Shown: piece by piece, positions 2 to 14,908 of the stretch | How positions within the stretch are numbered: the stretch's first letter is position 1 | How the letters are laid out: the number at the start of each line of letters is the position of its first letter | Assembly: GCA_947447265.1 (NCBI GenBank) | Contig: CANFKC010000027.1 | Coordinates: 1 to 64,000 of the forward strand | DNA: 64,000 nt | Direction: 5' to 3' | Origin: Chitinophagaceae bacterium | GTDB taxonomy: Bacteria; Bacteroidota; Bacteroidia; Chitinophagales; Chitinophagaceae | The notes under the pieces: model-generated | What the model was told of the DNA's origin: nothing | Databases searched by the model: none | The model's input: the letters and a program-made list of their open reading frames with translations, nothing else | Made by a program: the position numbers and the translations under genes

Positions 2-163
2 TTGGGTGGATGGCTCTTTGGCCGGATTGCCGACAGAACCGGCAGAAAGCAAAGCATGACCCTATCTGTGTTGATTATGTCGCTGGGTTCCTTACTTATT
101 GCCTGCACACCAACATACAGCAGCATTGGCATTGCCGCCCCTATAGTGCAGTATCTCTACTAA
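2..163 (+). pseudogene. MFS transporter fragment (metabolite:H+ symporter type), truncated at both ends
   Basis: The frame is open from the window edge to a stop at 161-163. It encodes the loop 2-3 signature of the major facilitator superfamily ([13 protein letters not shown]) and the following membrane helix, in the form typical of the metabolite:H+ symporter group (ProP, KgtP and ShiA relatives). Family resemblance stops abruptly after residues IGIAAPI, near 145. In the family this stretch is followed by a long hydrophobic helix, but here five unrelated residues and a stop follow. The 5' part lies outside the window. The gene is therefore broken by a junction with the leftward helicase gene, whose own C-terminus is lost at the same place. 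The call as a broken MFS gene is firm; the substrate is unknown. Confidence 0.75.
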
Positions 164-3100
164 CCGGGTAATGTTGCCATCCCCAACCCTTGCCACCATT
201 TTATCCGATACCTTTTCAAAGTTGTTTTGCTCCACCACCTCAAGGATTTGTTTATCAAGGTATATGTCGCCACCTTTTGACCGTGATGCAGGTACGATTA
301 CCTTAAAATAATTGCCCTGCTTAAAGAAGGAAATCCCGGTATTGGTATGGATATGCCCGTTGTACGTTAGTGATTTGATGAGCGTTAATGCCTTAATAAT
401 AGGAACAACCACCTTATCCTGTATCTGCTCTCCAGGATTCCAGTTTTCCGGCATCAGAATACCCTTAACCGTTTTACCATCTATAGTGGTGTAGCTGACC
501 AGCTTGCCTTTAAAATCGCTGAATGCCTGTAACAGGTTTCCGGTAATAGTGTGCCTGATTTTGCGGTCAACATGGTTTTGTTGGGTGTATTTTCCCCATT
601 GTTCCAGCAAGGTTTCCTTATCCAGTTGGCGTATGTCCGAACTTACCCCGATAATAGCCATTATATCCTCAGAATAAGAAGCAGGTATAGAGAGATACTT
701 GCTGCTGTTGGCTATAGCAAAACGTAGCTTTATCAAAGATGGTGCATACGGGTTTTTCTTCTTCATATCAATGCTGTACCCAATAAAAACAGCAGGTATC
801 AATTCGTTCCCGGCAGAAAAGGTTTCAATAGCGTATTTGATACCCCTGCCTACATGGAAAAACTTAAATATTCGTTCAAGGTATTGCTTGCGGTTGGTTG
901 ATTTTACACGGAGCATTTTAAGCTGCCCTTCCTGAGCATCCCGCAATTCCTGCTCCCGTTCCTTGATGGCTGCCATGCGCTCCGCTTCATTGGCAATCTT
1001 CTTTATTTTCTTCTCCGTGACAATGTTTCGGATGAGTTCTTCATACTTGGTATTGGCTTCCGCTTGCTCCTCTGATAACCTACGTTGGCTGTCCTCATGA
1101 TATTCAGCTATCAATTCCTGCTGCAATACAAGGGCATCCTTGCCCTTTAAAGATTCATTGAGTAGATTATTCAATTCAATGGTGGTAAACGGCTTTTTGA
1201 GTACGTTTGCCCGGATGGTTTCTAAAATGCTGTCTTCCCCAAAGGCACTATCCGAACCTTTACCCATTTTCACCACTTTTGAACTGACGGTTTCCGCATC
1301 CAAATTCATGGCTTCCACTTCCAAATCATACTCCCCAACCTGCCGTAAGTAGGCTTCATAGTCAATATACCGCTCCGCCACCTCGTTATAAAAATCCTGC
1401 TGCATCTTGGTGGACAAAACAGCTACCCGGCCACTAACCTTATGTGCCGCTTCTTCAATCACAGTACCTTCACCACTATCCGCCTTGCTGTCATTCATTT
1501 TTAACGGGTCGTCCAGCATTTCGTTAATGTCCGGGTTCTCAATCAAATATTCCTTGACAATCTTATCCCCGTATTTATTCAGAAAATCAGGCACATCCAA
1601 AATCTTGGTGGATTGCTTTTGGTTGGAAGTGGTATTGGCATCCAATGATTTCAACTTTTTCTGCAACATCATCATTAACCGTTTTTCAGCGGGGATAGCC
1701 GAAGTAACATAATCATATATGGGTTTCATGATTTGCCCGGTACGGTTAATCCTACCCCTTTTCTGTACCTCTGTATTAATGTCCAGTTCTGCCTGTAAGA
1801 CAATCATTACCCTTTGCTTGATTTGTGATGCAGGTACTTTGGCTGTTGGTATTGCATGAGCGGATGCACCCGTACTGCCAGACTGGTTTATCATCAGTAC
1901 ATCTACCTCATTATTGTTGAATTTACGGAACGCATCATTGGTATTGAGCTTTTTCCTTGACATAACAAGGGCTTTAGTCCCCTTATTGTTCATCTGCAAT
2001 TCATACTTGCGTCCGGTAACTTCGGCAACGGAATATCCGGCATCCTGCAATTTCTTGATGATAACGTCAATGGGGGATATTGTTATCCCGGTGGACACGG
2101 ACTGAATGCGTTCGTAAATACGGTTATACTCCGCTTGGGCTTCCGGTGGCAGTTCGCTGACCTCAAATTTTTTGTAAACAGAATTACCGTCCACATCTTT
2201 TTCGGTATAGCGCAATATCCCATCCAACCCCCGTTTCAACACTTCGGTAAAGTCGGCATTGATAGTATCCCCATCGCTCACCGGAAAACCATGCTCATTT
2301 TCAATGCTCTCAATAAAGCTGCCCATTGTAGATGCAAAGGCAATAACAGGCTTTTTGCCCTCCTGTAACCGCATGATTGCCCGCTGCGCTACCGATTCCG
2401 CTTTCAGGCTGAACAACATTTGGTTAATTACCTGAAAGACTTTGGAGAAATAGGGTTGGTTATCCACCCCTGCCTGTGATGTACCCTCCCTTACCCCGAT
2501 TTCCTTTCCCTCTGCCACAGCAATTTTATCGAGTTCCTCTACGGCTTCATTGACATACTTGCCCTGAAAAGTAATAATGTCCCTGAGTATGCCTGTAATA
2601 TTGTCGGCAATAGCCCTGTGTTCCTCTGTCTTTTCATCAAGGCTGATGTAATTGACCTCTATACCTTCAAAGCTGCGTTCCCTGCGGAGCATCTGCCCTT
2701 CTGCTACCAATTGGGAGGAAAGTACCTCTTGTAACGCTACGCCACCCCTTGTAATGGCATCCACCAATTCATCCTTGCTCATGTTACAGTCGGCTATGGC
2801 GGTTTTCATGGCGTATATCGGCATATTGTCGGGACGCTTGGCAAATGTTGCCGATAAGAATATGATACCCTTTGTATTGCGGACAACCCCCTGTAAAAAC
2901 TCCCCGGTATTGGAAGAACCGGAACTGTTGTGCGCTTCGTCCATGATGAAAATATTACCTTCCGCTATGGCTTGCAGGAACAATGGTTTTTCCGGTTTCT
3001 TTTCCGGGCTGTTGAATTGGGAGTAGGTCGCCACCACAAAATCATATTTTGCCGGGATCTCCCGTTCTTTAAAAATTGCCTGTTGTTCGGTTACGGATGG

Positions 3101-4657
3101 TGCGGAATAAATGACATTGCCATCTTCATCCTTAATATCGGTTTTAGGTTCACGGCTATTGACAATGAGTGGTTTTAAATGACCTGAACCGATAGCGTAT
3201 AAATCCCTGTAAATGTCTGAAAACAGGTTAGCCTTTTCAGTAAGGAATACAGGCTTTAATCCCTGACATACGCCGTAGCGTATCATGGAAGCGGCAATAC
3301 GCCCTTTGCCGATACCCGTCTGGTCGCCAATAATCATGCCCTGCCCCCTTGCTTCAATATTGTAGATTGCCATTGCCACCGCATCAATCTGCTCCGCTGA
3401 AAGGGCTTTGCAAAGGGCAGTTTGAGACGGGAATTGCAGCCTGTTGCGCACAAAGTGGTCAATATCCCCACCAACCTCTTCTTTTATCTGTGCAATGGCT
3501 GATTGCGTTTCAAAGGACATGCTGTCGGGTACTTGCGTGTTGAGTACCACACAGCTTTCTGATGCAGGGAGGTAGGGTGCGCCAAACCCATTGAAATCCG
3601 CACCCAACATACGCTGCAATTCCAACGCTTCCCTTTCCAATTCATGTAGCTTGTTCAAACCTGTATCTTTTTTTACTGAATAATCCGGTACATATTCCAT
3701 CGCATCCAAAACCCTGTCATATAAATCATCAAAAGTGGATACCACTTTATTACTTTCCTTATCCAGTACGGGTGCAGCTCCTTCAGGAAACCGTTTTTTG
3801 CCATTGATAAGGATAAGCCGGGTATTGAATGCTGTACCCTGCCTTGAATACAGCCTATGCCCGTCAATAGGGATTACATCGACAACGTAATACCGGCTAT
3901 ACAGGTAGTTGAAAAAAATCCTGTTTTTACCTGCCTGTATCCGTCCTTTATCGTCATATTGGGTATGCCCGCCAATTATGATGGCTGCCTTTCCGGTACG
4001 GTTCATTGTTTCCAATGCCCGTAAAGCCATAACATGGTCGAGTGTGTCTATTTTGAACGTGTCGAATTGTACAGGTTTGTCCAGCTTGCCAAAGGGAGGG
4101 TTGGTAATGACCGCCTGATAAGTTCCCGATACATCAAAAAATGCTTTGGATGCGTCCCTGTCCCATACATTAGCAAATCCCTGTGTCTTCAGATTGCTAT
4201 TCCTGAAATGGTCAATTTCATTGACATACATCCGTTCGGGTTTGGCAGCAACGGTCAACAACCCATTCCCGGCAGAGGGTTCAAACCCAAACCCGCCTGT
4301 AAATTGCAGTTTGTCCAACCCACAAAAAATACCCGCAATAAACCCTATCGGTGCAGGGGTGGAATACTGTTGCAGCAACATGGATTGGCTTGTCCGGTGC
4401 GATAGGTTCACTTGGTTGTAGTACAATTCAACAATTTTGTCAAAACGTTCTTTGAGGTTTTGATTCTCGTATCCATACCCTCCGCTTTGCGCTATATCCC
4501 TTGCTACTTCTACAATTGCCAGTTCCGTCAGTTCCTTGACCTCCGTTTTATCGGTAATGCCATAAGTCGCCGCCAGTTTTTCAATGGAGATTTTATTGTA
4601 CTTCTTAGCACCCCGTAAATCGGTTTTTACTTTTTCAATATAGTTGCGGTAGTCCAT
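92..4657 (-). CDS. DNA N6-methyltransferase-like / strawberry-notch-type helicase, DarB-like (C-terminus probably truncated)
   Basis: This 1521-residue protein joins an N-terminal adenine methyltransferase-like domain to an SF2 helicase. Visible methyltransferase motifs are a QYSTPAPI segment (residues 97-104), the AdoMet loop EPSAGNG (126-132) and the catalytic NPPF (186-189). Helicase motifs are the P-loop [10 protein letters not shown] (444-453), DEAH (573-576), SAT (602-604), a GSTGASAHA segment and an arginine-rich motif VI ([11 protein letters not shown]) further on. This arrangement is known from strawberry-notch family proteins of phages and conjugative elements and resembles P1 DarB, a virion-packaged antirestriction protein; function here is inferred from that. 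It is last in a leftward block of phage-like genes. The final 20 or so residues are the reverse complement of the broken MFS gene, so the natural C-terminus is missing. Confidence 0.82.
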
Positions 4658-4714: not shown

Positions 4715-5308
4715 TTAATTGACTGCCAATGGTGCGTAAGCCAAGCTATACCTGTTATTCCAAATCTGGTTAAACGCCTGACTGCCATTAGCCCATAGTT
4801 CAACCGTATTGCCATTGGTGGTTATCGTTTTTTTGATAGCCCATGCCGCTACTGAAACAGCGGTAGTTGGCACGGAGTAACCGAAGTAAACAATGCCTGC
4901 CTGCGCAACATCGGAAACCAACGCCTGGCCTAACCCGCCGACAAGGTTATTGTTTGGTGCTAACCCAGTTTTTATGTTTTGCAGAAGCCCTATCATGGTT
5001 TCCAATTTAGCAATCTCTTCATCCTGTTTCGTTTCAGTAGCGGTATCAGAATAATCCTTCATCCATATTTGTACAAGGAAATCCCTCAATTCCTTTGAAT
5101 CGCTGAATGTATGAGGGTTGCTTACATCACTTGTACGTAGCAGGATGTGTTTTAGTGGCCCCTCCCCGATATTTATGCGTACAATTTCCCCTTTGGGATT
5201 ATCTATGACTTTGATTTGCTGTTTATTGATAACAATAACACTTTCACTGGTGTTGTCGGCTATTGTTATTCTGATACACCGCTCCTCATTAGCAATCATT
5301 GTTGGCAT
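4715..5308 (-). CDS. Phage-like virion/tail-associated protein
   Basis: The protein has 197 residues and no signal peptide or membrane segment. The first 100 residues look like a compact beta-rich domain, followed by a short charged helix (about 90-115). The last 60 residues (GYSVPTTAVSVAAWAIKK, then a segment with WANGSQAFNQIWNNR) resemble the repeated-sheet C-termini of phage tail or virion proteins, where an ANG-N-FN-IW-NR pattern is common. It sits between the helicase/methyltransferase gene and a small membrane-protein gene in one leftward transcription unit. A structural role is inferred from this pattern and context; no catalytic motif is seen. Confidence 0.5.
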   Translation of the reverse strand: MPTMIANEERCIRITIADNTSESVIVINKQQIKVIDNPKGEIVRINIGEGPLKHILLRTSDVSNPHTFSDSKELRDFLVQIWMKDYSDTATETKQDEEIAKLETMIGLLQNIKTGLAPNNNLVGGLGQALVSDVAQAGIVYFGYSVPTTAVSVAAWAIKKTITTNGNTVELWANGSQAFNQIWNNRYSLAYAPLAVN

Positions 5309-5502: not shown

Positions 5503-6174
5503 TTAGTTGTGATGTAAAAGCCCGTAGGTGGCTATCCCCGAAAGGATGAACAGCCCAGCCGATAGCAATTTATTCTTTGCCTTAAACCGCTTGAGCTGCT
5601 GCTGGTAGTCATTACTCTGGCCGGATAACAATTGCTGCTGCACAAGGCTTTGGTCAAAGGATAGCTTTTGGCACAGATACTCCTGTTGCAATACACCAAT
5701 TACACTATCCTTATTTGCAATCCGGCTGCTGAGTGTGGTTGACAAGTCTTCGTAAAGGCTGTCTTTGATACTTGCTGATAAGACTAAATCCTTAACTGCC
5801 GATTGCAGGGTATCACAATCAGCAAGTTTTTGAGGTGTGTCCGCTTCATTTGCCGTTTGCACCATTAATGTATCTACTAATTCGAGCAATACTTTGTTGT
5901 CATGCTTTGCCTTTTGCAAAGCGGATTGGGTATTGAAAATTTTACCGGATAAAGCAGCATTGGTCTGCTGTAAGGAATCCAGCTTGTTCTGAAAGTGGGT
6001 TTCTAAAACCACACTTTTCAGTTTCATATCGGTTGGCAACTCAAAGGTTTTCGTTAGTGGTTGTTTTGAGGTGTTGGCGTTCCTGCCACCAAAAAACATT
6101 GCGCCGCCAATACCTGCTATCAAGCCAAGCACTAAGAGGATAAAGGACTTTAGATAATTTGTTTTTGTTCGCAT
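5503..6174 (-). CDS. Membrane-anchored coiled-coil protein
   Basis: The protein has 223 residues. An N-terminal membrane segment (about residues 9-28, FILLVLGLIAGIGGAMFF) is followed by some 160 residues rich in Q, L, K and D in heptad-like spacing, and a second hydrophobic segment near the C-terminus (KLLSAGLFILSGIATYGLL). The shape, a coiled coil tethered at both ends, is compatible with a spanin-like lysis protein or a virion membrane protein. No family is recognised. It is co-oriented with and close to its neighbours in the leftward phage-like block. Confidence 0.6.
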   Translation of the reverse strand: MRTKTNYLKSFILLVLGLIAGIGGAMFFGGRNANTSKQPLTKTFELPTDMKLKSVVLETHFQNKLDSLQQTNAALSGKIFNTQSALQKAKHDNKVLLELVDTLMVQTANEADTPQKLADCDTLQSAVKDLVLSASIKDSLYEDLSTTLSSRIANKDSVIGVLQQEYLCQKLSFDQSLVQQQLLSGQSNDYQQQLKRFKAKNKLLSAGLFILSGIATYGLLHHN

Positions 6175-6236: not shown

Positions 6237-6476
6237 CTATTGCCCTGCCCCGGCATCTTGTTCTATGGCAGCTTTCTTCTCAAAGCTGTAACCAAAGCAA
6301 CCTGCCGCAATCAGGCTTGCAAAAGTGTAGAACATAAACTCCGGTACATCCCTGTGGAAAAACTGTTGGGCTACCCAGCTTATGACAAGAACTATCAGCA
6401 AAATGCCGATAACAAATTCCCTCATGCTGTAACTGCCCAGCTTGTCTTTAAGTAATTGTTGAAAAAACTGTTTCAT
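6237..6476 (-). CDS. Holin-like small membrane protein
   Basis: This 79-residue protein has two clear hydrophobic helices (FVIGILLIVLVISWVAQQFF and a segment around FYTFASLIAAGCFGYSF). A basic amphipathic N-terminus and a short charged tail flank them. Size and topology match class II holins. It lies immediately downstream of the L,D-transpeptidase-like and amidase-fold genes, which is the usual position for a lysis module. No sequence family is recognised, so the holin call rests on topology and context. Confidence 0.5.
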   Translation of the reverse strand: MKQFFQQLLKDKLGSYSMREFVIGILLIVLVISWVAQQFFHRDVPEFMFYTFASLIAAGCFGYSFEKKAAIEQDAGAGQ

Positions 6477-6567: not shown

Positions 6568-7158
6568 TCAGGCTGCAAGGCTCAAGGCTGGTGTTTCGTG
6601 TAACAGCGTATAGGTAAAGCTGTTGCCGTATAACTGCTGATGCCTGTCGCATAACGACATGAATCTGTTGAAATCAGTAGCGTTGGCGATTACTTGGCAT
6701 CCGGCTGAAAACTTATCAATGTACTTTGTCGTACCCTCCTGCAATGCCCTGTGGATATTGATGCCAAATATCCCGGTATCTTCCTTGCCGCTGAAATCAA
6801 ACGTGCCGTCCCTTTTTGTTTCCCTGATAACAGTAACGGGGGCACGTTGTACCAATGCAAGGTATCTGCTGCGGTGCAAGCCAATAATGTGGGAATTAAG
6901 GTATTGCCCCTCTTTTAAAACAGCAGTACCCTGCGGGTTCAACGGGTTTTTCAGCCAAAACTGTCCGGGGTCGGTTGTTGCCGGAAAACTATGCAGTTGC
7001 CAGTTCCCTTTATCATCCTTGTACATTACGTTGACGCTATCGTTAAACGTATTGGACAAAAGGTTTTGGCTCCTGATTCCGATAATATTGAGTTCAAAAG
7101 GGCGTGTAAATACCCTGTAGCCATGCCCGATGAGGGCTGCTATTAGTTTTTCTGTCAT
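6568..7158 (-). CDS. L,D-transpeptidase-like (YkuD-like) peptidoglycan protein of phage type
   Basis: The protein has 196 residues with no signal peptide. Its core (FWLKNPLNPQGTAVLKEGQY, then IGLHRSRYLALVQR) leads to a GINIHRA segment with His136 and a SAGCQ segment with Cys154. The spacing and order of His and Cys recall the H...S/GC catalytic pair of L,D-transpeptidase (YkuD) folds, with SAGCQ in place of the usual SHGC. Proteins of this appearance occur beside amidases in Bacteroidota phage-like loci, which is the case here (amidase-fold gene 32 bp upstream). Catalytic function is inferred; a non-enzymatic peptidoglycan-binding role is possible. Confidence 0.5.
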   Translation of the reverse strand: MTEKLIAALIGHGYRVFTRPFELNIIGIRSQNLLSNTFNDSVNVMYKDDKGNWQLHSFPATTDPGQFWLKNPLNPQGTAVLKEGQYLNSHIIGLHRSRYLALVQRAPVTVIRETKRDGTFDFSGKEDTGIFGINIHRALQEGTTKYIDKFSAGCQVIANATDFNRFMSLCDRHQQLYGNSFTYTLLHETPALSLAA

Positions 7159-7190: not shown

Positions 7191-7595
7191 TTATGCTGCT
7201 TCGAGAAATGCAGGGATGTAACTACCCAGCCATTCCTTGATGTCAAAGCCGGGATTGGCAAAGGCATACAAATAGAGTTCATCTGCACCGATAATATTGG
7301 CTTCGGTAAATTGTTCGGATAGCACGACCAATGTATTGAACATGGTCTCCTTTTGTTCTTCCGTCCGATTGTCCACATGCTTGCCAACCCTGTCAAGCCC
7401 ACCGAGCCATGCTATTTCAACCGTGGTGTCTTGTGGTTGTATTGGCTTGATGCTAATCAGCCTGCCGCTCCTTGTTATCAAAAAATGATAGGGCAGCCTG
7501 TCCAGTTCTTTGAGCATCATGTTCACCCTTGTAGCCGTGGCGTGCAGGACGATGTGTTTAATTTCCTTCATACGCTTCATTGTGTTCTGTTTCAT
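7191..7595 (-). CDS. N-acetylmuramoyl-L-alanine amidase-fold protein, zinc site degenerate
   Basis: This 134-residue protein follows the T7-lysozyme/Amidase_2 pattern: IVLHATAT with the first zinc-ligand His (His18), PYHFLITRSGRLI (35-47), a GG-D...DNRTEEQ stretch (65-81) and the closing NPGFDIKEWL. In active enzymes the end reads GHxD...CPGFD, supplying a second His and a Cys. Here those positions are Ala104 and Asn114. Two of three zinc ligands are therefore missing and hydrolysis is unlikely. The start lies 2 bp from the stop of the upstream gene, implying translational coupling. A binding, structural or regulatory role is more likely than lysis. Confidence 0.75.
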   Translation of the reverse strand: MKQNTMKRMKEIKHIVLHATATRVNMMLKELDRLPYHFLITRSGRLISIKPIQPQDTTVEIAWLGGLDRVGKHVDNRTEEQKETMFNTLVVLSEQFTEANIIGADELYLYAFANPGFDIKEWLGSYIPAFLEAA

Positions 7596-7597
7596 CT

Positions 7598-8665
7598 TTA
7601 GAGATATTTGATTGATTGTGTTTTGATTAAGAAATACTTGTTGTTGTTTTCAAATAGGGTGTAATCAAGGCGTTTGGTAACTTCATTCCCAAGCACCATA
7701 CGGGCAGGGACTTCTACGCTTTCTGTAGCGGTTACCCAAACGGTTGCTGCTTCTTTGGTAACTATGGCTTGCCCGTCAAATCCCGACAAGCTCCACTTAT
7801 TGCCGTCATACTGCAATCCCATTCGGATAAACTCAAACCTGATTTTCTGTTTCTGCGCTTCGCTGCTAAAACTGTTGAGCAAGCCGTTCACCAATGTTTG
7901 CCGTACCCCATGCAAGCGGTGCTGCATAAAACTGTTACTCACCTGCTGGTAATCGTCCTTGTTCTTAATGCTTTTAAGCAGGGAAAGGACGGTATCTAAT
8001 TTCTGCGCAACGGTGGCATTGTATAATTTTTCCGCAAGGGCTAAGATTGCTGATGTGGTTGCGCTCCCTTCTGCTGCCCCTCCCTGCGTAATCACATTAA
8101 AAGTGCTTTCGCTGACAATGGTTGGCATTCCGTTTTTCTTCAGGGCTGCCTGTGTTTCTGAACCGAAGTCCCCGTCCGCACCATACTTGGGTAAGACGCT
8201 GCTGCCATACTTGCCTATCAATGCCTGTTGCAGTTGCCGTACTTTATCTCCCTTGCTGCCTTTCTTCAATGGAAAACCATTGTCCGTGCTGGTGTCCCTG
8301 TCCCTTCTTGTCCTGCCACCTCCTTTTGTGGTATCTACCGGAGGTTTGTAAGTAGTATGGGTGTCTCCCGGATTGTTCTTCGTGCTATCCGGTACAGGGT
8401 TCAGCTTGAGTATCTCATCGTCAAGGTTGGTTTTGGACGACTTCTTTTTCTTAAAATATTGCCAGCCAAAGTAACCTGCCACCCCTGCTACGCCAACCGA
8501 AAGTGTAGTCAGAAAAATATTAGCTGCACTGCTTTTTGCTGCCTTTTTGGGGGTATTGGCATTTATATCCCTGACTTTCACCTGCTTGGTCGTTTTGGCA
8601 GGTTTGGGTGGCTTGCTTTTATCGGCTACCTTCTTAGCTACCTTTCGCTTAATTTTTGCTATCAT
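7598..8665 (-). CDS. Membrane protein with peptidoglycan-binding domain and annexin-like helical region
   Basis: The protein has 355 residues: a Lys/Pro-rich cytoplasmic N-terminus (1-46), one membrane helix (about 48-70), a Pro/Thr/Gly-rich linker (90-128), a PG_binding_1-like domain (about 130-192, with GSKGDKVRQLQQAL and GADGDFGSETQAAL), a helical region resembling an annexin repeat (about 205-275) and a C-terminal domain of unknown type. The peptidoglycan-binding motif is clear. The annexin-like region is a weaker pattern match supported by the clearer repeats in the upstream gene. The gene lies 3 bp from its upstream neighbour and 2 bp from the amidase-fold gene. A virion or lysis role is inferred. 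Confidence 0.65.
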   Translation of the reverse strand: MIAKIKRKVAKKVADKSKPPKPAKTTKQVKVRDINANTPKKAAKSSAANIFLTTLSVGVAGVAGYFGWQYFKKKKSSKTNLDDEILKLNPVPDSTKNNPGDTHTTYKPPVDTTKGGGRTRRDRDTSTDNGFPLKKGSKGDKVRQLQQALIGKYGSSVLPKYGADGDFGSETQAALKKNGMPTIVSESTFNVITQGGAAEGSATTSAILALAEKLYNATVAQKLDTVLSLLKSIKNKDDYQQVSNSFMQHRLHGVRQTLVNGLLNSFSSEAQKQKIRFEFIRMGLQYDGNKWSLSGFDGQAIVTKEAATVWVTATESVEVPARMVLGNEVTKRLDYTLFENNNKYFLIKTQSIKYL

Positions 8666-8668
8666 GAT

Positions 8669-9379
8669 TTAATTGTTTGGTTTGCTGTTGATGATTTGCA
8701 GCATCGGGTCATATTCCCAAAATTCAAGCTCGCCTTTCAGGTCTTCAATCAGGCTTGCCCCGTACAAGGATTGGTAAACTGCCGCTACTTGGTTAAAAAC
8801 TGTTTTGGTCGGTATTTCAAGGAATACAGCTTTTATGGCAGGTTCGTCAGTACCGGGGATACCTGCATAAGAAATATCAAATGCCGCTTTCAACCGTTTA
8901 GCCCAGCCCTGTAAACTATCTATGGATATTTGCCTTTGCGTGTTGGGGTTATAGGTTTCAGGCTTTACGGAAATGATGGATAAAAACTCGCTGTACTCCG
9001 TGCTTTTAAGTTCATCCTGCATATCCGCCAGCAGGTTGCTGTTATACAGTTTTTTGTAGGAAGCCATTACCTTTCTGAAATCGCCCTTGCTTGGTATCGC
9101 CCTGATTGCACCCCTCAAAGCATCTTTATCTGTTCCCCACCAACCGTCATTGTCAAATGCCATTTTGATTTGTTTGGCATAAGCAGGTGCGCTGCCTTCC
9201 TCCAACGTTTTGTTCTGCTCATTTTTCGCAATCGCATTCTTGACTATTTTCCTACCGATAATTACAGTCCCACCTAACAGGATAATGCCTAACATTGAAT
9301 ACTGGATTTTTTCTTTTGCCGTAAAGCCGGGCTGTGCTGATACCCCTGTCATCGCTGTTTTGTTGTATCCGTTACGCAT
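8669..9379 (-). CDS. Membrane protein with two annexin-like repeats
   Basis: This 236-residue protein has one hydrophobic segment (about 27-42) and then two similar repeats at about residues 66-137 and 157-231. Both follow the scheme GTD-x2-A...IP-x-K...F-x2-V-x3-Y-x2-LY-x3-L-x2-D-x3-EL-x3-EY. This is the order of signals in an annexin repeat: a GTD/E loop, then helices ending in a D-x3-EL segment. Annexin-type proteins are known in bacteria but have not, to my knowledge, been a standard part of phage modules. It is followed 3 bp later by the peptidoglycan-binding gene. Calcium or membrane binding is a hypothesis only. Confidence 0.55.
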   Translation of the reverse strand: MRNGYNKTAMTGVSAQPGFTAKEKIQYSMLGIILLGGTVIIGRKIVKNAIAKNEQNKTLEEGSAPAYAKQIKMAFDNDGWWGTDKDALRGAIRAIPSKGDFRKVMASYKKLYNSNLLADMQDELKSTEYSEFLSIISVKPETYNPNTQRQISIDSLQGWAKRLKAAFDISYAGIPGTDEPAIKAVFLEIPTKTVFNQVAAVYQSLYGASLIEDLKGELEFWEYDPMLQIINSKPNN

Positions 9380-9418: not shown

Positions 9419-9601
9419 CTACACGCCCAAATAGGCTTTTGCCATTGCTTTTTTTACAGGGTCATTGGCTACAACGTGCGCCAGCTTTGTGAGTTCCTTT
9501 GCCGATAATTTGGCTGATAGTATGGTCAATGCCCTTACTTTTTCGTCTGCAACCGCTTCTTCTTTTGCTGAAATGGTTATTGTGTAATCATACTTCTTCA
9601 T
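9419..9601 (-). CDS. Small conserved-looking phage-type protein (60 aa)
   Basis: The protein has 60 residues: an N-terminal beta-like segment (MKKYDYTITISAKEEAVADEKV) and two short helices ending DPVKKAMAKAYLGV. No membrane segment or catalytic motif is present. Similar short proteins are familiar from Bacteroidota phage and prophage loci, but no function is known. It has an ATG start, is 39 bp upstream of the annexin-like gene, and lies 13 bp after the stop of the small frame at 9615-9731, so all three are probably co-transcribed. Confidence 0.55.
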   Translation of the reverse strand: MKKYDYTITISAKEEAVADEKVRALTILSAKLSAKELTKLAHVVANDPVKKAMAKAYLGV

Positions 9602-9614
9602 ACTGGTTTCGATT

Positions 9615-9731
9615 TTAGATTTCTACGTTAAGTAATTGTGCTACCGTTATTAGTTGGTCAGGGTGGTACATCAGGGTTTCCATAACAAGGTTCATCAGCA
9701 ACATTTGCTCTTCATTAAATGCTTGTTCCAT
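9615..9731 (-). CDS. Short helical protein, or C-terminal remnant of a truncated gene
   Basis: The frame from ATG at 9731 gives 38 residues (MEQAFNEEQMLLMNLVME... ending in QLITVAQLLNVEI) and stops 13 bp before the next leftward gene, matching the spacing in this block. Upstream of the ATG the frame stays open, but the sequence there becomes the reverse complement of the SNF2 gene after about 9745. It may be an intact small gene or the tail of a larger gene cut by the junction. No family is recognised. Confidence 0.4.
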   Translation of the reverse strand: MEQAFNEEQMLLMNLVMETLMYHPDQLITVAQLLNVEI

Positions 9732-9746
9732 TTTCTGAATACTGCT

Positions 9747-11282
9747 GAGTATGTGGACGAGGCGCAAAAAATAAAAACACCGGGTACGTTAATAACATCT
9801 GCATGTAAAGCACTTAAAGCTGATTTTAAAATAGCCATGACAGGTACACCTGTGGAAAATACATTGGTTGATTTATGGTGCATTATGGATTTTTCCGTTT
9901 CCGGTCTTTTGGGTACTACCAAAGAATTTGCAAAAGAATTTCAAAATCCATTAAAAAATTCAGAGACAGATGTAGCACAATTATGTGAAGCACTTAGAAA
10001 TAAAATTGGCATCTTCATAAAGCGGAGACTTAAAAAAGATGTCGCTAAAGATTTACCGGAAAAGTTTGATAACGCACAGTCTCGGATTGAAAAGCAAATG
10101 CCCCCTGTTCAGTTAGAACGGTATAAAGTTGAAATGGATAGGGCGAAGAATACGGACATGGAGAGCGAAAATAGAGGGGCATTGATTCTAAAATCATTGC
10201 AAGCGATAAGGGATATTTCCGACCATCCGTATTTGGCAGATAAGCAGGTTTTAAGCTATCCTTCAAATGAATTGGTCGCTACTTCAGCAAAGTTGCAAAT
10301 ATTGCTTGATATTTTAGAAAACATCCGCTCAAAGGAAGAAAAAGTCATCGTTTTTGCAGACAGAAAAGATACTCAAAAAATGCTGCAAAAGGTTGTTTAC
10401 GAATATTATCGCATAAGTTCAAGTATCATTAATGGCGACACACCTGCGACAAAGCAAGCCGAGGGTAAAATAAAATTAAGTCGCCAGCAAACCATTGACA
10501 AGTACCAATCTGTAAAAGGGTTTAACGTAATAATTATGTCCCCCATAGCAGCAGGTGTTGGTTTGAACGTAACTGGGGCTAACCATATTATTCATTATTC
10601 ACGGCACTGGAACCCGGCTAAAGAAGAACAAGCAACGGACAGGGCATATCGTATCGGACAGCAAAAAGATGTTCATGTGTATTATCCAATGGCAGTTGCT
10701 GATTTTGATTCATTCGACTTGATACTTGATAGGTTGCTTGCCAGAAAAAAGGCACTGGCGGCAAGCACACTTTACCCTACAGAGCAAATTGAATTGAAAC
10801 TTGATGAAACCTACAATAGCATTTTTGGTTTTAATGCTGAAAGTTCTGAATCCCCTTTATCTACAAGCGACATCAATAGTTTGCAACCGCATTTATTTGA
10901 AGCATTCATTGCTGCCTTGTATTCAAAAAAGGGGTTTAATACACATCTTACACCATATTCAAATGATAAAGGCGTTGATGTAATTGCTTTTAAGGACGGT
11001 GAAAACTATCTAATTCAGGCAAAACAAAGTAAGTCTGTAATTGGCAACGATGGAGTGCAGGAAATTGCTGCGGCAAAACATTATTTTGATGCTAAATATG
11101 GTTTAGAATTTAAGCTGATTTTACTATCAAATAATGATTTCACATCGGCAGCGGAATTATTAGCTAAACCCAATAAAATTAGCTTAGTAAACAGATTGCT
11201 ACTCGAAAGAATGATAATTGATAATGTAGTAACAATTCAAGATGTCCATAAATATGAAGCTATGCGGATGAAAATTGTGTAG
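9747..11282 (+). pseudogene. SNF2-family helicase fused to Mrr-like restriction nuclease domain, 5'-truncated
   Basis: The frame starts abruptly inside an SNF2 helicase at motif II (VDEAQKIKTP). It continues through motif III (MTGTPVEN), the C-terminal RecA lobe (KVIVFADRK, SPIAAGVGLNVTGA, and an arginine-rich motif VI around EQATDRAYRIGQ), and ends in an Mrr-type PD-(D/E)xK domain with GVDVIAF and LIQAKQ as the catalytic D and Q-x-K. The ATP-binding motifs I and Ia are absent. The open frame back to 9654 encodes unrelated sequence, the reverse complement of the neighbouring leftward frame. The intact parent would be an ATP-dependent restriction-type protein. The remnant cannot hydrolyse ATP normally, though the nuclease domain is intact by eye. 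Confidence 0.75.
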
Positions 11283-11580: not shown

Positions 11581-11612
11581 TTTGAAAAATTGAAAATGAA
11601 ATTATAGTTTTG
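11581..11612 (+). promoter_or_regulatory. Bacteroidota-type promoter of the XRE-ImmA gene
   Basis: TTTG at 11581-11584, a 20-bp spacer and TAGTTTTG at 11605-11612 match the consensus TTTG-N19-21-TAnnTTTG. Transcription would start near 11619, which excludes the TTG codon at 11610 as the translation start and favours ATG 11652 (or TTG 11637). Confidence 0.6.
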
Positions 11613-11651
11613 TACCGAAAACTAAAAGTGGATATTTTGATTAATAAGAAC

Positions 11652-12659
11652 ATGATTGTTTTAGCAAGGGAATCACGAGGGATAACTCAACTCGACTTGG
11701 CAAATAAAATTGCTATGTCTAAAGCTAATTTAAGCAAAATTGAAAGCGGAGATATTGGGGTTAGTGCTGATTCAATTGAATTGATTGCACAAGCTACCCA
11801 TTATCCGGTATCGTTTTTTGAGCAAAATAATGACGTTTATCCTGAGCATCTAATTTATCGCAAACGGGATAACGTAGCACAGAAATTACTAACCCCACTA
11901 AATGCAAAGGTTAATGTGGTGAGATTGAACATCCAGTACCTTTTAAAGATGTTGAAATTAGATAACCCTGCTTTGCCTATGTATGAAGTGGATGAGCAAA
12001 ACACACCTGCTATCATTGCGCAAAAAGTGAGAAAGGCATGGAAAATAACTTTGCCCGTTATTGATAATACCACCAAACTTTTAGAAGAGAAGGGAATAGC
12101 GGTTACAAGTTTTGATTTCGGGACGGAAAGGGTAGATAGCCGATGTACGCTTACTGAAAATAAGTACCCTATTATCATCTTCAATAACACTTTGTATGGA
12201 GATAGGCAGCGGTTTTCATTAATATTTCAATTGGCGCATCTTGTTATGCACACAACCGGAAGTATTAGTTGGGATAGGGATGTGGCACATGAAGCAAACC
12301 TGTTTGCGGCAGAGTTTTTAATGCCGGAAAAAGATATTAGACCGGATTTTGAAAATGGCATCAACCTCCCTTTACTTGGTGAATTGAAACGTAAATGGAA
12401 AGTATCAATGATTTCATTGCTATACCGGGCTGACGATTTGGGCTTTTTAACACCAAACCAAAAAAAGTACCTGATACAGCAGTTCAATGAACAAAAAATG
12501 AGAAGACGAGAACCTGTAGAGCTTGATGTACCCGTGGAAAAACCAGCAATGGTCAGAAAGTGGATTGCTGATTTCAAAACAAAACAAAAGCTGGACGTGA
12601 AAGATGTAGCGTCCCATTTTCATTTGAATACTGATGAATTTATAGAACTATACAATTAA
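11652..12659 (+). CDS. XRE HTH / ImmA-IrrE-like regulator with degenerate metalloprotease motif
   Basis: An N-terminal XRE helix-turn-helix (ARESRGITQLDLANKI, then SKANLSKIESG) is joined to an ImmA/IrrE-type domain. In active members the zinc motif reads HExGHxxxH. Here the aligned stretch is FQLAHLVMH: the first His is Phe and the catalytic Glu is Gln, while the second His and the downstream EANLFAAEFLMP segment are kept. Proteolysis is therefore doubtful. The family normally cleaves repressors of mobile elements or cytoplasmic targets. The ATG at 11652 was chosen because it follows the predicted transcription start. The next gene begins 20 bp after its stop. Confidence 0.78.
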   Translation: MIVLARESRGITQLDLANKIAMSKANLSKIESGDIGVSADSIELIAQATHYPVSFFEQNNDVYPEHLIYRKRDNVAQKLLTPLNAKVNVVRLNIQYLLKMLKLDNPALPMYEVDEQNTPAIIAQKVRKAWKITLPVIDNTTKLLEEKGIAVTSFDFGTERVDSRCTLTENKYPIIIFNNTLYGDRQRFSLIFQLAHLVMHTTGSISWDRDVAHEANLFAAEFLMPEKDIRPDFENGINLPLLGELKRKWKVSMISLLYRADDLGFLTPNQKKYLIQQFNEQKMRRREPVELDVPVEKPAMVRKWIADFKTKQKLDVKDVASHFHLNTDEFIELYN

Positions 12660-12679: not shown

Positions 12680-12895
12680 ATGGCAACAATTACATTTATA
12701 AGTGAGATAAGACCATATTCCGCCAAAGAACTTGCGGATATATATGGCGTATGCGACAAGACGGTAAAGAAATGGATAAAACCATTTATTGAGCAAATTG
12801 GCGAAAAGCACGGCAGGTACTATAATGTAGCTCAGGTCAAGATAATATTTGAACGGTTAGGAGTGCCGTGCAAAATGAAAGAGATAGCAGCTTAA
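12680..12895 (+). CDS. Small helix-turn-helix (MerR/excisionase-like) protein
   Basis: The protein has 71 residues. The segment SAKELADIYGVCDKTVKKWIKPF is a winged-helix-type DNA-recognition motif as found in excisionases and MerR-like helix-turn-helix_17 proteins, followed by RYYNVAQVKIIFERLG. It lies between the XRE-ImmA gene and the recombinase operon. A role as recombination directionality factor or local regulator is plausible but not shown by sequence alone. Confidence 0.6.
   Translation: MATITFISEIRPYSAKELADIYGVCDKTVKKWIKPFIEQIGEKHGRYYNVAQVKIIFERLGVPCKMKEIAA

Positions 12896-13207: not shown

Positions 13208-13211
<4 letters not shown>
13011..13211 (+). CDS. Small conserved-looking protein coupled to the recombinase
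   Basis: This 66-residue acidic helical protein begins MTINELKAYPNCDHYTDEQAENILRT when the ATG at 13011 is used; the earlier ATG at 12999 lies inside a palindrome. Its stop overlaps the recombinase start (ATGA at 13208-13211), so the two are translationally coupled. The pattern YPNCDHYTDEQAENI recurs in small proteins beside integrases in Bacteroidota as far as I can recall. A recombination cofactor or directionality role is inference only. Confidence 0.55.

Positions 13212-14902
<1,691 letters not shown>

Positions 14903-14908
<6 letters not shown>

Follow-up and report, generated by a model that had tools for sequence, protein, structure and literature searches.

An annexin-domain membrane protein encoded in a probable virus-like element of Bacteroidota

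The window analysed here is a stretch of 64,000 nucleotides from a Chitinophagaceae bacterium (assembly GCA_947447265.1, contig CANFKC010000027.1), and it carries the genes and features collected in Table 1. The annexin fold is known chiefly in animal and plant cells, and a preliminary description of this DNA had proposed two annexin-type repeats in a 236-aa membrane protein, placed beside lysis-type genes in a phage-type cassette. The neighbourhood is as described, since PHROG amidase and endolysin families are matched by the genes that follow.

Table 1. Genes and features of the element in the window (positions in the window; residue numbers refer to the respective protein)
Feature	Position	Strand	Evidence or remark
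Strawberry-notch-type helicase, AAA_34 + Helicase_C_4	92..4657	(-)	
Conserved element protein of unknown role	4715..5308	(-)	
223-aa coiled-coil membrane protein	5503..6174	(-)	
79-aa small membrane protein	6237..6476	(-)	family in 65/67 testable loci
Endolysin-like peptidase	6568..7158	(-)	PHROG 3000 / 33083
Amidase-like peptidoglycan hydrolase	7191..7595	(-)	PHROG 822, 2.3e-15
355-aa protein: basic N-terminus, transmembrane helix, peptidoglycan-binding domain (residues 139-176), C-terminal weak annexin-like register (about 206-248)	7598..8665	(-)	Pfam, PHROG, profile comparison
236-aa membrane protein: N-terminal transmembrane helix and two annexin repeats	8669..9379	(-)	Pfam, PDB profile, structure model
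Annexin repeat 2, residues 153-231	8687..8923	(-)	helices 153-167, 179-188, 192-206, 210-217, 220-231; G176 T177 D178, E217
Annexin repeat 1, residues 61-137	8969..9199	(-)	helices 64-79, 85-94, 98-112, 116-123, 126-137; G82 T83 D84, E123
Transmembrane segment, about residues 28-46	9242..9298	(-)	hydropathy maximum; model helix 21-57
60-aa protein directly upstream of annexin gene	9419..9601	(-)	family in 73/73 testable loci
3' remnant, about 50 codons, of coiled-coil protein (217-aa family)	9615..9767	(-)	translation compared by eye
5'-truncated SNF2 helicase + Mrr_cat restriction endonuclease gene	9735..11282	(+)	
HTH + IrrE-type peptidase regulator	11610..12659	(+)	relative in the G014 element
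HTH protein common to fuller elements	12680..12895	(+)	
Large serine recombinase (integrase)	13208..14908	(+)	
tRNA-Pro	14777..14851	(-)	overlaps 3' end of integrase frame

The Pfam family PF00191 (Annexin) matches the 236-aa protein at 27.7 bits, with a cut-off of 25, and matches 45 of the 54 members of its family at E ≤ 0.01. These members form the alignment A4, which takes in 54 of the 57 sequences that passed filters on length (215 aa) and 90% identity; alignment A5 takes in 38 of 40 such sequences. Searching the PDB with the profile of the 54 members gives 75 sequences at E ≤ 0.1, the best at 3.1e-17, and 58 of the 60 matches listed are annexins or annexin fusions, the other two being an RNA helicase domain (E about 0.02). 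The two repeats align with each other with a local score of 140 (shuffled mean 24.6, maximum 47, n=1000), and their profiles match with an hhalign E of 2e-24. The motif GTD, IPxK, YxxLY and DxxxEL occurs at set spacing at residues 82 and 176; none of 100,000 shuffles of the protein matches this pattern, a result that is not independent because the pattern was composed after the repeats had been seen. A single transmembrane stretch precedes the repeats. In the PHROG scan the protein weakly matches a head protein (0.024).

The AlphaFold model of the protein, built on the 54-sequence alignment (mean pLDDT 86.7, with at least 90 for 149 of the 236 residues), has an N-terminal helix that contains the transmembrane segment, followed by two repeats of five helices each, in line with the four- or five-helix repeat expected of annexins, so that the result named in the preliminary description as refuting it did not occur. 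The 50 rows that VIA-align lists (Z 9.7-12.1) carry annexin or giardin titles, apart from PDZ-type and similar fusion entries, which we take to be annexin A2 fusions because some are titled so. As helical models may attain such Z values by chance, the claim of an annexin fold is carried by the sequence evidence. Repeat 1 superposes on domain 1 of annexin I at 1.9 Å over 73 residues (Z 10), whereas the two repeats together, compared with neighbouring annexin repeats, give an rmsd of about 8.5 Å over about 146 residues and do not superpose jointly, so the packing of the repeats is either unlike that of solved annexins or badly predicted. Chance likeness to annexins was considered and is ruled out by the Pfam, profile, repeat and structure results. 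That the 236-aa protein crosses the membrane once and carries two annexin repeats is thus well supported, by comparison of sequences and by the predicted structure. We class it as an annexin-domain protein and not as a classical annexin: strict eukaryotic annexins have a four-repeat core, and the present protein has two repeats and some of its relatives one.

In the next gene the preliminary description had seen a further, weaker annexin copy fused to a peptidoglycan-binding domain. The domain is supported: its Pfam match lies under the cut-off (18.5 vs 23 bits) but is backed by PHROG endolysin families, among them an endolysin filed under head (1.5e-5). The annexin copy is unproven. The Pfam scan of the 355-aa protein gives no annexin match, and comparison with the annexin repeat profile aligns 43 columns in the right register with an hhalign probability of 28% (E 6e-4 in a single comparison). 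Annexin is the best non-self family for this query (score 26.0, the next 16.7), but the controls are not clean, since an unrelated endolysin-like family scores 25.6 against annexin repeat 2. The peptidoglycan-binding proteins of two elements with a single annexin repeat also match the annexin profile weakly (0.0053 and 0.0027). Taken together, these comparisons give only a weak hint of a third repeat. A second combination of the two domain types is found elsewhere, in an eCIS_core protein with PG_binding_1 and annexin domains (L123:6752-10516).

Relatives are present in 4 of 59 nearby genomes, that of the window counted, and led to G014, a genome in one contig with a fuller element. Upstream of its annexin gene, this element has a block that is absent from the window and that includes a 246-aa capsid-like protein, whose mean identity over 55 loci is about 70%. 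The annexin gene therein stands between the capsid-like genes and the peptidoglycan-active genes. The term phage-type cassette holds in spirit, but the element resembles a tailless and not a tailed phage.

The capsid-like protein has no sequence match in the PDB. Its model (pLDDT 74.1, pTM 0.66) has eight strands after residue 80, which we read as a single jelly roll. The best solved match in Foldseek is the capsid protein of Sulfolobus polyhedral virus 1 (SPV1; 1.7e-5, probability 1.00), with low TM-scores (0.34/0.43) and an rmsd of 6.8 Å, and the penton protein of FLiP is fifth in the list. VIA gives a Z of 8.6 for SPV1, followed by capsid proteins of giant viruses, PRD1, HHIV-2, HCIV-1, P23-77 and SH1 (6.5-7.9), all values being under 9. 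Viral proteins, mainly capsid proteins, fill 24 of the 50 VIA rows; 25 others are the non-viral enzyme PHM (best 7.4) and one is a plant protein, and the viral matches in BFVD comprise capsids together with movement, tail and other proteins. Because these lists are mixed, we name the protein capsid-like only. The likeness to SPV1 and to single and double jelly-roll capsids (PRD1, SH1, HHIV-2, P23-77) is one of fold; there is no sequence match to these viruses, hosts, gene content and the annexin gene differ, and membership among them is not claimed. Among the neighbours, the 125-aa and the adjacent 174/312-aa families are related to each other (hhalign E 3.6e-7, probability 93%), and the 312-aa protein matches a PHROG scaffold family at 0.0017; as a candidate second jelly-roll protein, the 125-aa family gives no significant match to the capsid-like protein. 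A conserved transglutaminase-like protein, with a Pfam match under the cut-off, is also encoded near the capsid-like gene (L007:3747-5582 and relatives) and is possibly a maturation or cross-linking enzyme.

By comparison with these fuller elements, the window copy looks like a damaged provirus that has lost its capsid-like genes. In the fuller elements, a gene of the coiled-coil 217-aa family precedes the 60-aa gene; in the window a remnant of its 3' end was recognised by eye, and phmmer finds no match for the family there. The SNF2-Mrr gene occupies the place of the capsid-like genes. This gene, itself truncated at its 5' end, abuts and faces the remnant of the virion-module gene, and the boundary has the appearance of a deletion that brought cargo and structural block together. 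A search of the complete assembly for the capsid-like gene, run without an internal positive control, found none; the similar profile A2 did match in G014. The left end of the element is cut by the contig start, and the tRNA-Pro gene is likely to mark the integration neighbourhood. In a search for the empty site, the left flank is found in all six relatives fetched, and the right flank in none of them within about 17-19 kb. The relative of the Strawberry-notch-type helicase in G014 also has weak methylase matches.

The conservation of the module was studied on contigs with the capsid-like protein, using the best 80 of 125 relatives, so that the figures tilt to closer relatives; these 80 loci belong to Bacteroidota wherever the title gives a group. 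Culturable carriers of the element, complete or not, include Flavisolibacter nicotianae X7X (L019), Puia dinghuensis (L068) and Chitinophaga eiseniae (L067). The annexin-family profile finds a single gene in each of 74 of the 80 loci, in every case on the strand of the capsid-like gene and 2115-3887 bases after it (median 2473). In the six other loci the contig ends 1436-2422 bases after the capsid-like gene. Among testable loci, the genes for the 120-aa (76/76), 125-aa (80/80), 217-aa (73/74) and transglutaminase-like (72/73) families are also almost constant, and the peptidoglycan-binding protein is present in 64 of 70. Distances among the annexin proteins and among the capsid-like proteins correlate with r=0.69 over 55 loci (permutation maximum 0.25). 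It is therefore well supported that the annexin gene is a core gene of the structural module of this element family. In 14 assemblies, each a metagenome bin according to its title or an unlabelled MAG, two or three loci are present, which is the expectation for mobile elements.

A strong hydrophobic stretch is found in seven of the conserved families that make up the module. So many membrane proteins make a virion with a lipid layer probable, and the element itself is probably a virus, its capsid protein being of the single-jelly-roll type. Within the reach of our searches, it looks like an undescribed tailless virus lineage of many environmental Bacteroidota. PHROG scans of 19 proteins of the G014 element and 10 of the window, with the small genes partly outside, show no terminase or portal family, and no FtsK-HerA packaging ATPase was recognised in the element proteins scanned. 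The ATPase of the element is RecA/AAA-like (AAA_24/AAA_25, PHROG 6891 and Sak4-like families). Weak or domain-level PHROG labels of head and tail do occur among the element proteins, and the element lysozyme matches a tail fibre/lysozyme family at 1.1e-27. A lysis cassette of a tailed prophage, as a full account of the locus, is not favoured, since the fuller relatives encode a capsid-like jelly roll together with numerous membrane proteins. Serine recombinases are present in the window and G014 elements. With home-made motifs, the serine integrase motif was matched in the flanks of 7 of 86 loci and the tyrosine motif in none, most flanks probably ending inside the element. The ends of the G014 element (1.1 kb vs 1.0 kb) share no word of at least 14 bases, a result still compatible with a serine recombinase.

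Could the element be a non-viral one, such as a plasmid-derived or a defence island, with the annexin protein as membrane cargo? The window does carry SNF2-Mrr cargo, and a divergent copy of the element (L133/L134) lies on the circular 53-kb plasmid pPP10 of Persicobacter psychrovividus (NZ_AP025302.1), together with Rep and ParA/B genes. The jelly-roll capsid-like gene, the endolysin families and the largely fixed gene order nevertheless speak for a virus, as does the absence of conjugation genes among the families matched in the proteins scanned, and we consider a non-viral nature very improbable. The pPP10 copy is possibly a phage-plasmid form; its annexin-like 150-aa protein is found at 7.7e-6 with the family profile and at 0.005 with Pfam. 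The capsid-like protein also matches in a second P. psychrovividus record (NZ_AP025293.1).

The charges that flank the transmembrane segments predict how the membrane proteins are oriented. The annexin side is net positive, hence predicted to be cytoplasmic, in 38 of 54 family members (8 opposite, 8 ties), and the peptidoglycan-binding protein is predicted with its N-terminus inside and its domain in the periplasm in 54 of 68 (8 opposite, 6 ties). In phages with an internal membrane, the cytoplasmic leaflet turns into the outside of the viral vesicle. This would place the annexin pair on the outside of the viral membrane vesicle, which corresponds to the cytoplasmic side; on infection the pair would meet the calcium-rich periplasm of the new host and could bind the acidic phospholipids of the inner membrane. 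The viral membrane would dock there, and the neighbouring peptidoglycan hydrolases would open the wall. From the predicted topology and the geometry of the leaflets we propose such docking of the vesicle to the inner membrane, with periplasmic calcium as the trigger. Our preferred reading, held tentatively and at somewhat less than an even chance, is that the annexin-domain protein belongs to the core membrane proteins of tailless-virus-like proviruses in Bacteroidota and docks the viral to the host membrane, the window containing a damaged copy.

The same genes admit a role at exit, and a new use of annexins in lysis, as the preliminary description had it, is one of several options and not the favoured one. 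The annexin protein would then stay in the host inner membrane and aid the hydrolases; the entry of calcium could, for instance, make it bridge or disrupt membranes. Adjoining genes are peptidoglycan-binding, amidase-like and endolysin-like, and some elements add a lysozyme-like gene (21 of the 80 loci) or a glucosaminidase gene (8 of the 80). Yet seven hydrophobic families would exceed the needs of a bare lysis cassette and fit a virion with a lipid layer better, and the annexin gene comes after the capsid-like genes and is inherited with them; we regard a lysis protein as unlikely, though worth keeping in view.

The calcium-ligand loops bear on docking itself. GTD or GTN is found in the loop of repeat 1 in 50 of the 54 family members, with an acid at the position of E123 in 49; for repeat 2 the counts are 51 for GTD and 53 for the acid (position of E217). 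Gly-x-Asp/Asn and the downstream acid, as in a type II site, are together retained in 49 of 54 for repeat 1 and 51 of 54 for repeat 2. The window protein has GTD and the acid in both repeats, 41 residues apart; in annexin V the gap between loop and acid is of 40 residues. The inspection of calcium ligands called for at the outset thus gave a divided answer: these residues are in place, but the GxGT[DN] spacing is absent from the window protein and present in only 12 of the 54 members. Calcium binding by the repeats is plausible, judging from these residues. The spacing missing in 42 of 54, together with a repeat packing unlike that of solved annexins, would suit a protein whose annexin fold merely joins the viral membrane to the capsid shell and binds neither calcium nor lipid; the retention of the loop residues and the acid argues against such a spacer, which we hold to be unlikely but still a serious rival. 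The fullest version of the docking proposal is that a family of bacterial viruses uses a calcium-switched annexin pair to dock its internal membrane to that of the host, or to fuse the two, and that most annexins of Bacteroidota are carried by these mobile viruses and perhaps arose in them; as a whole it seems to us rather unlikely.

Annexins were on record for bacteria by 2014 at the latest, where they are rare and scattered (Kodavali et al. 2014, PMC3894181). The accessible part of that paper describes members in Bacteroidetes, transmembrane helices in some of the bacterial annexins, and short annexins encoded side by side as pairs; its bacterial annexins include those of Cytophaga hutchinsonii, Kordia algicida and Spirosoma linguale. 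It reports no annexins in viruses, and gene neighbourhoods gave no general clue there. The element annexins share with that set the five-helix repeat and the sequence profile, and differ in their constant place in a virus-like module and in having a transmembrane helix ahead of their two repeats, or single repeat. Annexin domains also occur in polymorphic and eCIS toxins (PMC3482391, PMC8213781, from the portions available); these share the Pfam domain, whereas the element annexins are short membrane proteins, and the 54 of them that were scanned match 7 Pfam families, none of which is a toxin family. FLiP, a lipid-containing phage of Bacteroidetes, has a double-jelly-roll capsid protein and single-stranded DNA, and according to the part of its description available it too lacks an FtsK-HerA packaging ATPase (PMC5894146); the word annexin occurs 0 times in the main text of that paper. 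In the open-access literature searched we found neither an annexin in a virus or phage nor a description of this element. An annexin in a virus would, if true, be a new membrane-handling tool for phages.

The distribution of annexin genes was followed in larger genome sets. In 392 genomes of the phylum, PF00191 is found in two, and the capsid-like profile in the same two; this is a lower bound, since the search missed the genome of the window itself. A set of 291 genomes from the order to which G364 belongs has PF00191 at 12 places in 11 genomes, and eight of these places lie in the virus-like element, among them L129, where no capsid-like gene was recognised, and L128, whose contig is short. 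By length and motif, a single repeat is present in seven of the eight elements and in L130, and L127 has two. Toxin-type annexins are found with eCIS_core (L123, which L124 resembles) and with Ntox3 and lipase domains (L126) by Pfam. Membership of the annexin gene in a virus-like element may thus explain the patchy occurrence of bacterial annexins; if most Bacteroidota annexins ride on one provirus family, that distribution is accounted for and the job of the protein becomes testable.

Divergent elements extend the range. In G021, two of them keep an annexin-like 281-aa protein (6.6e-11 and 2e-11; Pfam 0.0025 for the one scanned). The element of G273 has the capsid-like gene, and the annexin position is taken by a 178-aa membrane protein (L119:6086-6622) that gives no annexin match. 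A tblastn search of a phage collection gives no match for the annexin or the capsid-like protein, and in IMG/VR a plain annexin query alone finds none; two IMG/VR contigs do carry both genes. In L130 (G935), the annexin lies among endolysins, an integrase and tail-spike-like genes, and the capsid-like gene is absent; there the single-repeat annexin stands beside a second short membrane protein, an arrangement that resembles the annexin pairs reported in Flavobacteria. One of the IMG/VR copies (L011:2793-4912) has, by eye, genes for a histidine kinase and a response regulator between its regulatory and structural blocks.
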